From positions 496,001-560,000 of the forward strand of contig NZ_FPBP01000001.1 in NCBI RefSeq assembly GCF_900116705.1: DNA of 64,000 bases, written 5' to 3'. The translations under genes were made by a program, and so were the position numbers. The notes below the pieces were generated by a model. It made no database searches, was not told the DNA's origin, and was given only the letters and a program-made list of their open reading frames with translations. This DNA is from Halomonas korlensis (lineage in GTDB: Bacteria > Pseudomonadota > Gammaproteobacteria > Pseudomonadales > Halomonadaceae). Of this stretch, positions 1-54,254 are shown piece by piece; positions within the stretch are counted from its first letter, which is position 1, and the number at the start of each line of letters is the position of its first letter.

Positions 1-507
1 GATGCCATCACCAAGCAGATTAAGAAACTGATCAAGACGTTCGATATCCAGTTCGGACTGATCCATCCCGAATACTTCGTGGCGGCAGATGGCGAGATGT
101 ACTTCGGCGAGGTCGCCTATCGCCCGCCCGGTTTCAAGGCCTTCGAGCTCATCGAGCGCGCCTACGGGTTCAGTGCCTATCAGGCATCGATGCTGGTCTT
201 CGATCCCAAGAGCACCAAGGAGGAGGTCGAAGCCTTCTTCCCCCGCGAAGTGGTCGACGCGAAAGGCTATGCCGGGTGTTTTGGCGTGTATCCACGGCGT
301 CGTGTCGTCAGCAAGCTGGAGATGCCCAAGGAAACCATCGAGCACCCGTACTTCGAATCTCACGAGCTGGTGGCGCCGGCTGAAGAGACAGTGCCGGACC
401 GCTCGGCCTTCGGCACGCACTGGGGCCTCGTGTTCTTCTTCGGTGACGATCCAATCAAGATGCGGGATCTGCTCAAGGCGCAAGAGGAACTGGACTTCTA
501 CGTCTAG
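1..507 (+). CDS. ATP-grasp family protein, C-terminal part (5' end outside window)
   Basis: The frame is open from base 1, so this is the 3' part of a longer gene. It matches the C-terminal 40% of the full-length ATP-grasp protein at 50939-52162; 110 of 142 aligned residues are identical by eye and both end in EELDFYV. It carries the last ATP-grasp segment, GLIHPEYF then GEVAYRPPG. In most ATP-grasp enzymes the latter reads E-x-N-x-R, so the usual metal-ligand Asn is Ala here, as in the paralogue. ATP-grasp enzymes join a carboxylate to an amine or thiol via an acyl phosphate; the substrate is unknown. Unlike the paralogue, no cysteine-peptidase-like gene follows. The next gene is convergent. 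Confidence 0.85.
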   Translation, partial: DAITKQIKKLIKTFDIQFGLIHPEYFVAADGEMYFGEVAYRPPGFKAFELIERAYGFSAYQASMLVFDPKSTKEEVEAFFPREVVDAKGYAGCFGVYPRRRVVSKLEMPKETIEHPYFESHELVAPAEETVPDRSAFGTHWGLVFFFGDDPIKMRDLLKAQEELDFYV

Positions 508-50827: not shown

Positions 50828-50938
50828 GAACCACTCACCTCATTCTTGCGGCGCAGAGGGCCGAGGATGAGAGTCGCTGCACCTTCGTGTATGGTGACGA
50901 ATCAACAATAAACGTTCACCCACCAGGAGAGGCACATC

Positions 50939-52162
50939 ATGAAGAAGGATCCAAACAAGGGTTATATCGCCCTGTTAGGCTGGAGCCTGAATGCCATCGA
51001 AGCTGCCGAAAACTTTGATCGCCGCTATGTCGTCGTAGCGCCTGAGTGGGCAGAAGAATACTGTCAGAAGCACGATATTCCCTATGTCCCCTGGAATTTC
51101 GAGCGCCTCAACGATCGCTCCATGGAAATTGCCGAAACCCTGCAGAAGATGGGCGTCGACGTTGCCATCCCGCTCTATGAAGAAACCGTAGAATGGGCCG
51201 GCGCCGTCAACTCGCTGCTGCTCGACAGCCCGCGCATTTATGGCCAGTCGCTGCTGATGCGCGACAAGGCGCTGATGAAGCGTCGCGCTCAGCTTGGTGG
51301 CATTCGCGTGGGCATTTTCGAAGAAGCCCACGACAAGGAAGACGTCGTCCGCTTCCTGAAGCGGGTCAATCAGACACTGTTGAAGCTGGATGGCGACCCC
51401 AACGACCCCATCCACCTCAAGGCCTTCGACAAGGCAGGCTGTCTGGGCCACCGAGTCATCCGCACGCCGGATGAGGTCGATACCATTCCCGAGGAAGAAT
51501 TCCCGGTACTGATGGAATCGCACCTCGATGGCTGGGAGTTCGCCGTCGAGGCCTGGATTCACAACGGCAAGATCGCCTTCCTGAATATTTCCGAGTACGT
51601 GACCCTGGGCTATTCCGTCTTCGTGCCCGCATCGCCGGAACTCGAGAAGTATCGCCCGCAGATCGTTGCCCAGATCGAGAAACTGATCAAGGCATTCGAT
51701 ATCGACTTCGGTCTGATCCATCCCGAATACTTCGTGACCAGCGACAACGAGATGTACTTCGGCGAAGTCGCCTATCGTCCGCCCGGTTTCAAGGTGTTCG
51801 AACTGCTGGAGCGGGTCTACGGCTTCAATGCCTACCAGGCCACCATGCTGGTATTTGATCCCAAGACGACCGAAGAAGAGGTCAAGGCCTTCTTCCCGAA
51901 GGAAATTGTCGATGCCAACGGCTATGCCGGCTGCTTCGGCGTGTATCCGCGACGTCGTGTGGTCAGCAAGCTGGAGATTCCCGAGGAAGTCGAGGATCAC
52001 CCCTACTTCGAGTCGCATGAGCTCAACGCGCCGGCCGAAGAGACCGTCACCAAGCGTACCGCCTTCGGTACCCACTGGGGCCTTATCTACTTCAAGGGCG
52101 AGGATGCCCACACCCTGCGCGACCTGTTGAAACACCAGGAAGAACTTGATTTTTATGTATAA
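50939..52162 (+). CDS. ATP-grasp family ligase of unknown substrate
   Basis: 407 residues. Residues 1-100 form a Rossmann-like pre-ATP-grasp domain (KGYIALLGWSLNAIEAAENF). The ATP-grasp domain shows DPIHLKAFDKAGCLGHRVI (Lys and Gly-rich loop), VLMESHLDGWEFAVEAWIHN and GLIHPEYFVTSDNEMYFGEV then AYRPPG. The usual Asn of the E-x-N-x-R metal motif is Ala, as in the left-edge paralogue. A conserved C-terminal part (about 290-407) includes CFGVYPRRRVVSKLE. It probably ligates a carboxylate to an amine. A 681-residue protein with a possible Cys peptidase domain follows after 46 bp. Confidence 0.87.
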   Translation: MKKDPNKGYIALLGWSLNAIEAAENFDRRYVVVAPEWAEEYCQKHDIPYVPWNFERLNDRSMEIAETLQKMGVDVAIPLYEETVEWAGAVNSLLLDSPRIYGQSLLMRDKALMKRRAQLGGIRVGIFEEAHDKEDVVRFLKRVNQTLLKLDGDPNDPIHLKAFDKAGCLGHRVIRTPDEVDTIPEEEFPVLMESHLDGWEFAVEAWIHNGKIAFLNISEYVTLGYSVFVPASPELEKYRPQIVAQIEKLIKAFDIDFGLIHPEYFVTSDNEMYFGEVAYRPPGFKVFELLERVYGFNAYQATMLVFDPKTTEEEVKAFFPKEIVDANGYAGCFGVYPRRRVVSKLEIPEEVEDHPYFESHELNAPAEETVTKRTAFGTHWGLIYFKGEDAHTLRDLLKHQEELDFYV

Positions 52163-52168
52163 ACAAGG

Positions 52169-52187
52169 GGCCATCAAGCTGATGGCC
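52169..52187 (+). repeat. Intercistronic hairpin in the ATP-grasp operon
   Basis: GGCCATCA-AGC-TGATGGCC, 8-bp perfect stem, 7 bp after the ATP-grasp stop and 22 bp before the next start. No T run, so it more likely shapes mRNA stability or sets the ratio between the two proteins than terminates. Confidence 0.6.
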
Positions 52188-52208
52188 ACCTGAGGAAAAG
52201 GAGTCGGC

Positions 52209-54254
52209 GTGACAACGTACGGACCCACGCAAGACGCCAATGAAACCCCGGCAGGCAACGACAAGCTCGTGGGTCTGCTGGCCAAACTCGACGAAGCCAC
52301 CACGCTTCTCACGAACTCTCGCGAGTTTGCCAAACCGGCAAAACTCCCGCGGGTGTTCGATACCGCTCGACGTGTCTTGCTACAGGAAGGCGGTGCCGCC
52401 GCCATCGAAGCACGCGCTCAGGCCCTGGAAGAAGCCGGTGTGTTTGTCGGCTCCGACTGGGAAACCCCTCAGTACCTGGTCCCCTCCCTGACGACACATT
52501 CGCTCAAGAGCACCGACACCAACACCGTGGTGATCGAAGTGCTCAGTGAACTGCGCCTGTTGGCGGTGGCCAAGGGCGATTATCTGCATCCGCTGATATC
52601 ATCCGAACAGGCCCATCACTATCTCACTCAGGTATTGGCGCTTAACCTGTCGCTGTTGTTTGGTACGCCGAGCGAGGCCGAGCGCGAATCGCAGGGCCGC
52701 CTGGCGCAGATTCCTCGCCATCTGTTTCATCACCTGGCCGACCGGATCGGCTACGAACACATCATCGATCGGCTGATTGACGAGATCTGGCGAATCCTGC
52801 AACAGCGCCCGATTCTGGTTGAGCCGGTCAAACAGATGATTACCCAGATCGCCATCTGCCAGGCCAACCCCGAGATCGACCTGGGTGTCAGCGGCCAGGG
52901 GGCCGACCGTCTGGTCAGCTCCCTTTTTGGTCCTACCCAGGCATGTCGGGAGGATCCTGGCGTTGAGGTCTATCGCGAACGCCTCGTGAGCATGGATAGC
53001 TCGGCACTGCAGAGCGAAGCCACCGGTTTTGCCCGTGCCATGCACGACACTGGCCTGGTATCGCCCTACCACACGGTGCTGCTGCGCCATCTGCTCGACC
53101 ACAGCGACCATCTGCTGTCCGAGGCGCTGGGGCTCTCCTCGACCGGCCGTGACTGCCTGCTCTGCTACCACGAGCTGGTCCATGCGCTGATACGGGCCGG
53201 CGTCCATCCGACCACCCCCCAAGCGGTCTATGGGCTGACGCTGACGCTCGAGCGCGGCATTCTCTATCAGCCGCCCGTGGCACCGGCGATGTGGCGCCAA
53301 CTGGGGTTGAGCCTCAGCGAGTGGTCGAAGGCACGCTTGAATCTGGCCTTTGGTGATTCCGTTTCGCCCCGCGCCCGCCTGGTGGAAGGCGTGCTCTGCG
53401 TCCTGGGTCTTCCGCTCGGCGTCGGCCAGGGCAACAACCCCACCTGTCAGTCGGCCCGCGCCCTTTCGATGTGGGCCTACAACGATCCGGACTATCTGCT
53501 GCAGATGGTGGCCTGGGCGGCGCGTGATGACGATATCATCATGCACTTCGAGGGCATGCCGCTTTCCTCCATGGCCAGCCTGTCCGGCGTCGCCACGGAA
53601 CTCCCCATGGACCTAGATCCGGTATCGCTGATCGTCGTCCCGCACCTGGATCGTATCTATGCCGAGATGGTCAGGCGCTGCATCGGCCGCGAAGGCGACC
53701 CGCACCGCTGGGTCAATCCTGAATTCCACGGCTGGTGGTCGGGACGCGGCTTTCGCATCAATGTCGACGTCGCCACCGGCCAACTGGACGAGCTCGATGC
53801 GTTTTTGCGCCACTTCTACGCCAGCTATCATCCCTACTACAACGGCAACCAGCCGCTGATCCATCCGCAACCCGCGGGCATTGCGGTCACCGACAGCGCG
53901 GCTCGCTTCATCGGCTGGCACGCCATTACGATACTGCGTGTGTCACTGGATCCTGACGATGTGATGCGGGTGTACTTCTTCAATCCCAACAATGACAGCG
54001 GTCAGGATTGGGGCGATGGCATTCAGGTCAGCACCGCACGTCATGGCGAACGCTTCGGCGAATCCTCGCTCCCCTTCGAGGAGTTTGCCTCACGGCTCTA
54101 TATCTTCCATTACGATCCGCTTGAGCGCGGTGAACTTGCCGAGATTACCCAACAAGAACTCGACCGCGTGATCGGCCATATCCATCGCAGCTGGGGAGCC
54201 AACCGGATTCCGCCCACGAACCTGCAAGCCTCGATGGGTCCGGAAGGCGCTTGA
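52209..54254 (+). CDS. Unrecognised protein with a cysteine-peptidase/transglutaminase-like C-terminus
   Basis: 681 residues; no family recognised. GTG start, 5 nt after AGGAG. Residues 1-390 are mainly helical. The C-terminal part has GQGNNPTCQSARALSMWAY (Cys413), FIGWHAITILRV (His571) and VYFFNPNNDSGQDWG (Asn592): the order and local patterns (Cys in a helix start, HA before a strand, NP after the next strand) match papain-like or transglutaminase-like folds. Activity may be peptide or amide cleavage, or acyl transfer. No signal peptide or membrane segment. It probably works with the ATP-grasp enzyme upstream. Confidence 0.75.
   Translation: MTTYGPTQDANETPAGNDKLVGLLAKLDEATTLLTNSREFAKPAKLPRVFDTARRVLLQEGGAAAIEARAQALEEAGVFVGSDWETPQYLVPSLTTHSLKSTDTNTVVIEVLSELRLLAVAKGDYLHPLISSEQAHHYLTQVLALNLSLLFGTPSEAERESQGRLAQIPRHLFHHLADRIGYEHIIDRLIDEIWRILQQRPILVEPVKQMITQIAICQANPEIDLGVSGQGADRLVSSLFGPTQACREDPGVEVYRERLVSMDSSALQSEATGFARAMHDTGLVSPYHTVLLRHLLDHSDHLLSEALGLSSTGRDCLLCYHELVHALIRAGVHPTTPQAVYGLTLTLERGILYQPPVAPAMWRQLGLSLSEWSKARLNLAFGDSVSPRARLVEGVLCVLGLPLGVGQGNNPTCQSARALSMWAYNDPDYLLQMVAWAARDDDIIMHFEGMPLSSMASLSGVATELPMDLDPVSLIVVPHLDRIYAEMVRRCIGREGDPHRWVNPEFHGWWSGRGFRINVDVATGQLDELDAFLRHFYASYHPYYNGNQPLIHPQPAGIAVTDSAARFIGWHAITILRVSLDPDDVMRVYFFNPNNDSGQDWGDGIQVSTARHGERFGESSLPFEEFASRLYIFHYDPLERGELAEITQQELDRVIGHIHRSWGANRIPPTNLQASMGPEGA

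Follow-up and report, generated by a model that had tools for sequence, protein, structure and literature searches.

A predicted papain-like protein paired with an ATP-grasp ligase in Halomonas korlensis and its relatives: a candidate two-enzyme amide module

The 64,000 nt stretch analysed here (the window; Halomonas korlensis, contig NZ_FPBP01000001.1, positions 496,001 to 560,000, in a genome of 4.04 Mb) carries two co-directional genes, with 46 bp between the stop codon of the first and the start codon of the second. The first encodes an ATP-grasp ligase of 407 residues and the second a protein of 681 residues, here called BIG, for which a papain-like nature is supported by a modelled fold and a conserved Gln-Cys-His-Asn set. 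The genes look to be an obligate pair, and there is about an even chance that their products form a self-contained two-enzyme amide module, in which BIG would attack an amide made by the ligase through an acyl-enzyme at Cys413. The layout given in the original prediction, two open reading frames encoding 407 and 681 residues with a hairpin in the gap between them, agrees with the coordinates (Table 1). It had also been claimed that neither protein has a signal peptide, and hydropathy bears this out: no signal-peptide-like hydrophobic segment or membrane helix was seen in either protein by this measure (no signal-peptide program was used), the best 19-residue Kyte-Doolittle means being 1.19 and 1.34.

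Table 1. Features of the ligase/BIG locus and the related ligase at the start of the window (window coordinates).
Feature	Position	Strand	Details
ATP-grasp ligase gene, type I	50939..52162	+	407 residues, ATG start
BIG gene	52209..54254	+	681 residues, GTG start, aaggagtc upstream
Intergenic hairpin GGCCATCA-AGC-TGATGGCC	52169..52187	+	Perfect 8-bp stem, 3-nt loop
Promoter -10-like element TGTATGGT	50888..50895	+	43 bp 5′ of ligase start
Type-II ligase, C-terminal part	1..507	+	78% identical to the type-I ligase of the window

The two genes were found together or not at all. Presence was scored as a match at an expect value (E) of 1e-3 for BIG (by profile in the phylum draw) and 1e-60 for the ligase. 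The same 39 genomes were positive for both in a draw of 58 relatives, the same 8 in a draw of 274 genomes of the class and the same 11 in a draw of 398 genomes of the phylum, so that the union of these three overlapping draws holds 54 positive genomes and none with one gene alone. The BIG and ligase draws of 274 and 398 genomes are alike in size and in their listed members, most negatives being unnamed, and BIG copy numbers from the phylum draw are lower bounds (at most three candidates were scored per genome). Under independence of the genomes, the chance of such matching sets would be about 1e-15, 1e-15 and 1e-21, figures that overstate the case since the genomes are related. One more draw, made in another class, that of genome G342, gave BIG in 3 of 289 genomes with the ligase adjoining it in all three, two of which add to the positives above; here the ligase was sought in the BIG-positive genomes and not in the 286 negatives. 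The pair occurs in two or more classes of Pseudomonadota. Two genomes (G002 and G032) carry BIG as two pieces each, where a frameshift or an assembly error is possible. The pair appears to be dispensable, because a genome of the same genus with 99% completeness (G001) has neither gene.

Gene order was surveyed in the best 80 of 586 relatives, where the nearest named BIG homologues belong to Halomonas and related genera. A full ligase gene lies directly 5′ of BIG in 72 of these 80 named loci; one of the others is cut by a contig end, four retain a ligase remnant only, and three show no ligase at the cut-off. The conserved neighbourhood that had been proposed as a check was therefore found, and the proposal that ligase and BIG are a functional pair is borne out by the matching co-occurrence together with this adjacency. 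The reverse order, BIG before ligase, is seen at the paralogous locus of the window genome itself (L035) and at L041, L049, L050 and L051. The genes are divergent at L043 and, by coordinates, in G507 and G488, convergent in G227, and 1.4 kb apart in G316. Because the flanking genes, surveyed as frames of at least 70 codons, differ among seven loci outside the Halomonadaceae (L042, L047, L123, L124, L131, L132 and L133), the pair itself appears to be the unit. In a plasmid collection, the pair was present on one 1.83-Mb Halomonas record; the other 15 ligase matches were below 60% identity, and there was no other BIG. The region concerned (NZ_CP040452.1:1212713-1215981, Halomonas sp. PA16-9) has no annotated feature listed.

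In the host genome, two complete pairs that differ in gene order are separated by about 50 kb, and a third BIG stands alone on contig C11 (L036), giving three BIG genes and two ligase genes. The second ligase, of type II, overlaps the start of the window; its partner BIG lies just upstream, outside the window (C17:493183-495132), in the order BIG then ligase (L035:9189-12504). In genome G055 the excess is larger, with five long BIG copies and a fragment against two ligases. Between types I and II, the ligases are 77-80% and the BIG proteins 52-57% identical; close ligases are at least 74% identical to that of the window, and BIG identity between types goes down to 42-60%. Three type-II ligases (L035:11200-11290, L043:12297-12387 and L050) share a similar stretch of some 30 extra residues at the N-terminus, around DPTxDSVRGTETPKDPNKGY, which is not present in the type-I ligase of the window.

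All seven genomes without a full ligase beside BIG carry an intact type-II ligase elsewhere (78-79% identity). Five loci of Halomonadaceae (L107, L109, L110, L111 and L121) represent genomes with a single BIG match, of type I, and a single full ligase, of type II; each has a ligase-gene remnant just 5′ of BIG. In the trees, these BIG proteins fall in clade I and these ligases in clade II. The plain reading of the sequences is that two pairs were once present and that one gene of each was probably lost. Four of the five BIG proteins form one clade, while L121 branches outside L105, which retains its own ligase, and at least two losses are needed because of this placement. The L107 genome is a metagenome bin, possibly an incomplete one. 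At the other four loci, only the last 40 to 105 codons or so of the type-I ligase are recognisable before the intact BIG, with a minus-strand gene of another family further upstream. Three genomes (G003, G005 and G028) have a type-II ligase beside mere pieces of a second BIG. The BIG tree carries a long-branch warning for L203, L052, L142, L141, L152 and L153, and in the ligase tree the label ATP_BIG is a default that makes no statement on gene order for L173, L209 and L210.

An AlphaFold2 model of BIG built from 36 sequences has a mean predicted local distance difference test (pLDDT) score of 88.2 and a predicted template modelling score of 0.84. It shows a mostly helical region (residues 15 to about 400) followed by a papain-fold domain (about 402-636). 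Cys413 opens a helix (413-425), His571 lies within a strand (567-580) and Asn592 comes right after another (586-591), which is the order and secondary-structure placement of the papain-type Cys/His/Asn residues and speaks indirectly for the closeness of the three that the original prediction would require. With a structure aligner, residues 402-636 or about 374-637 match calpains with Z scores of up to 8.4 (calpain-3, 201 residues, 4.4 Å), staphopain at Z 7.5 (134 residues, 3.6 Å), a Parabacteroides cysteine protease at 6.4 and cathepsin B at 5.8; further papain-fold matches are Der p 1, bleomycin hydrolase and ZUP1. The remaining entries among the 50 structural matches listed align with the N-terminal helices. 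The original prediction had placed BIG among papain- or transglutaminase-like folds; the papain part is supported, and for the transglutaminase part no support was found among the 50 matches listed, those to the catalytic domain being papain-like. The N-terminal region may consist of helical repeats, as hinted by armadillo proteins in the Foldseek list at E of at least 0.2, which is not significant.

The residues agree with the fold. None of the 36 aligned homologues, which reach down to 42% identity, departs from Gln407, Cys413, His571 and Asn592, and the same four residues stand in all 121 distinct BIG sequences, that of the window included. The quoted motifs around the three catalytic residues were thus correctly picked, and homologues lacking one of them, which had been looked for as a check, did not appear among the 121. 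The motifs vary slightly, with FYNPN in place of FFNPN in several homologues and NYPTC in type II. Gln407 lies six residues N-terminal of Cys413, where an oxyanion-hole glutamine is expected, a spacing that we take to equal that of Gln19 and Cys25 in papain. Because fold match and conserved residues agree, the assignment of BIG to the papain-like proteins of Pfam clan Peptidase_CA is strengthened. For these counts and those of the ligase, 158 BIG matches were reduced to 121 distinct sequences and 178 ligase matches to 127; matches that covered less than 80% or were interrupted by a stop codon within the alignment were excluded, and seven of 45 loci (L050, L051, L055, L142, L152, L202 and L198) were left out, L142 and L152 being restored for the BIG tree.

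BIG looks to be an uncatalogued papain-fold family. Nothing significant was found in the scans made against Pfam, NCBIfam and PADLOC models, and neither BIG nor the ligase was matched by any PADLOC model. Against the PDB, the best phmmer match of BIG was at E 2.1 and the best profile match at E 0.28, with designed helical proteins on top. Up to E 0.1, none of the 36 homologues matched a named Pfam papain family (C1, C2, C39, C47, C70, BtrH_N, DUF3335 and CHAP). A few stray matches were taken as chance: DUF2891 (E 0.17), PqqD (2 of 36 homologues, E 0.011), ApbA_C (1 of 36, E 0.034) and a pair of NCBIfam models that each hit one of the 36 (E 0.05). In a Foldseek search of viral models, the best match, a giant-virus papain-like peptidase, was not significant (E 0.11). 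No description of the ligase/BIG pair was found in the openly licensed PMC literature, which does not imply its absence elsewhere. The suggestion that this is a candidate undescribed system holds to this extent, with no searched curated family covering BIG.

The ligase is only distantly related to characterised enzymes. The window protein scores 23 bits against Pfam ATP-grasp_4, below the cut-off of 27, and the model is matched by 14 of 14 homologues (best E 3.3e-6). The nearest solved structures are L-amino acid ligases (4wd3, and 3vot, which is BL00235) at E 0.0008 to 0.0015. LAL_C2, the C-terminal domain of L-amino acid ligases, gives 12.6 bits against a cut-off of 29.4, and NCBIfam PRK07206 ('hypothetical protein') reaches E 7e-8, yet its 31.5 bits fall far short of the required 302. 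RimK models are not among the family matches of the ligase, and SANT_DAMP1_like (3 of 14 homologues, best E 0.0026) was taken as chance. Lys110, Lys161, Glu193, Glu200, His261, Glu263, Glu276, Arg280 are invariant in 127 of 127 distinct sequences, and Glu263, Glu276 and Arg280 align with the corresponding stretch of 4wd3. Glu263 and Glu276 are presumably the Mg-binding pair, with Arg280 and the lysines as in active ATP-grasp enzymes, and judged by these residues the ligase looks active. Conservation is also strong in the C-terminal tail, where all 124 sequences long enough have Asp404 and Tyr406, position 405 is Phe or Tyr, and 407 is Val or Ile.

The hairpin between the two genes has no T-run and is not a typical terminator. 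Close relatives have a similar stem, and a 9-pair hairpin is predicted for the window and 14 other loci, with two pairs showing two-sided changes; the covariation term of this 15-sequence fold is 0.11 of -10.2 kcal/mol, a weak case for the hairpin functioning as RNA. The 14 loci were picked for like length and type out of 82 (some genomes being represented twice), and the intergenic sequence differs at other loci among these. Upstream of the ligase gene, TGTATGGT is likely a common promoter element: judged by eye, 8 of 18 aligned upstream regions carry it unchanged, and six more have it with one or two changes.

Other candidate amide enzymes were seen near BIG loci. Near type-II or type-III BIG loci (L035:4897-8302, L044:5286-8629, L050:12235-15674 and L051) there is a second two-gene unit, encoding a barely related ATP-grasp protein and an S15/CocE-like hydrolase (Pfam matches for both at L035, and for the ATP-grasp protein also at L044), which is possibly a second ligase-hydrolase pair. 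At L045:11035-13801, 3′ of a lone BIG and on the same strand, are genes for a beta-lactamase-fold hydrolase and for a protein matching GCS2 (glutamate-cysteine ligase family), the latter possibly another amide-forming enzyme.

ATP-grasp enzymes form an acyl-phosphate and then an amide. Papain-like sites break amides by way of an acyl-enzyme on the cysteine, and water or another amine resolves it. For the pair here, the ligase chemistry, the acyl-enzyme, the direction of the reaction and the substrate are inferred. The ligase would activate a carboxylate with ATP to give an acyl-phosphate and couple it to an amine, like the L-amino acid ligases. BIG, as a cytosolic papain-fold enzyme, would then attack the resulting amide, or a conjugate of it, with Cys413, His571 serving to activate the cysteine, Asn592 to orient, and Gln407 contributing to the oxyanion hole, and an acyl-enzyme would form. 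Its hydrolysis by water, making the system one of make-and-break as the original prediction had it, would be slightly more likely than transfer to a second amine. The helical N-terminal part of BIG may select the substrate, and one ligase may serve several BIG paralogues. Because neither gene was seen alone, and because in some genomes the only intact ligase for a type-I BIG belongs to type II, the enzymes most likely meet at a common product or intermediate.

Several points weigh against the amide module. What computation shows is the pair, its co-occurrence, the papain fold of BIG and the conserved catalytic residues, and the proposed chemistry goes beyond these. A pure eraser need not accompany its writer everywhere, and strict co-occurrence would also fit a linear pathway or a complex. 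The Z score of 8.4 is moderate, near the level that the aligner describes as possibly only a common arrangement. Foldseek alone gave no match of BIG below E 0.03, with the best papain-fold entry at E 0.28, under several unrelated ones, and at the sequence level no peptidase family matches BIG significantly. The model of the ligase was poor (pLDDT 51), and because of this no fold claims for the ligase were drawn from it. Finally, no recurrent substrate gene was seen beside the pair among frames of at least 70 codons, a survey in which a short peptide gene would be missed.

A close rival to make-and-break, and a real if lesser possibility, is a sequential pathway. In it, an aminoacyl or dipeptidyl intermediate from the ligase would be handed to an acceptor, via a thioester at Cys413, by BIG acting as an acyltransferase or transpeptidase; several BIG paralogues would then use different acceptors. 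The papain-fold cluster I described in a passage of PMC10318531 contains such acyl or peptidyl transferases (BtrH, phytochelatin synthase). A pathway would agree well with the strict co-occurrence and with the surplus of BIG copies over ligases in some genomes, and mixed partners would require only a common intermediate. However, no further recurrent gene lies beside the pair in the seven loci outside the Halomonadaceae, so that a longer gene cluster for a pathway is not apparent, carrier proteins not having been specifically sought.

Reversible amide tagging in Pseudomonadota, in which one ATP-grasp writer would attach an amino acid or peptide to cellular targets and several BIG erasers, each with a papain-like active site and a helical recognition domain of its own, would take it off, is rather unlikely. 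If true, different targets would be controlled separately, in outline like one E1 with many deubiquitinases. Somewhat less likely still is a regulatory protease or complex, in which BIG would bind, cleave or control the ligase and its peptidase reaction would not act on the ligase product. RimB stimulates poly-glutamate synthesis by RimK, according to part of PMC11957791, and the conserved C-terminal tail of the ligase is as expected of a docking tail. That tail may simply be structural, however, and the mixed partners would demand an interface conserved between types in spite of their divergence (ligases 77-80%, BIG proteins 52-57%). Synthesis of a small amide solute of halophiles, such as an amidated or carbamoylated glutamine derivative, is very improbable: amide solutes occur in halophilic Ectothiorhodospira, and many named carriers among the best 80 of 586 relatives belong to genera generally known as halophilic, but G001 of the same genus lacks both genes, no osmoregulatory gene was seen recurring beside the pair, and the word ATP-grasp is absent from the main texts of two Halomonas salt-response papers.

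Other systems are known in which an ATP-grasp ligase works with a peptidase or an enzyme of papain fold; the papain-like BIG family, and its partnership with this ligase, are absent from the family libraries searched and from the papers found. In glutathionylspermidine synthetase/amidase, an ATP-grasp-type synthetase and a papain-like CHAP amidase undo each other's work. That enzyme is one fused protein with a ligase of another family and a CHAP amidase, whereas the genes here are separate and neither domain was matched, and identity with it was rejected. Among solved structures, L-amino acid ligases (4wd3; BL00235, 3vot) come nearest to the ligase but are very distant, and we know of no papain-like partner for them. 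BtrJ is the ATP-grasp ligase of the butirosin pathway, and BtrJ and BtrH use a carrier protein in a large gene cluster. Like the pair here, BtrJ/BtrH combines an ATP-grasp ligase with a papain-fold enzyme, the acyltransferase BtrH (in passages of PMC10318531 and PMC2922099); BIG does not match BtrH_N, and identity with BtrH was rejected.

Two further papain-like groups are described in parts of the same sources. The 'New_papain' family is a predicted papain-like transacylase encoded in peptide-synthesis operons, some with ATP-grasp genes; these operons centre on a paralogous methionyl-tRNA synthetase, a cupin and a monooxygenase, and the family is set beside BIG by description only (PMC2922099). 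DUF3335 papain-like proteins are fused to GNAT domains and have been linked to what may be peptide ligation (PMC10318531, citing Iyer et al. 2009). BIG matches neither DUF3335 (PF11814), with which identity was rejected, nor GNAT models; in place of a GNAT domain it has some 400 residues of mainly helical structure.

RimK/RimB of Pseudomonas (and RloC/RloA) resembles the pair in that an ATP-grasp ligase is encoded with a peptidase, and in the sections of PMC12239564 and PMC11957791 concerned, RimB is described as removing the glutamates that RimK adds and as stimulating RimK. RimB is a retropepsin-like aspartic protease, whereas BIG is papain-like, and the ligase here matches ATP-grasp_4 and L-amino acid ligases, not RimK; identity with RimK/RimB was rejected on the lack of a RimK model match and the papain-like partner. 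By analogy, the pair, while matching neither family, most likely works like RimK/RimB or BtrJ/BtrH. If BIG does erase what the ligase writes, the two would be a papain-based counterpart to RimK/RimB.

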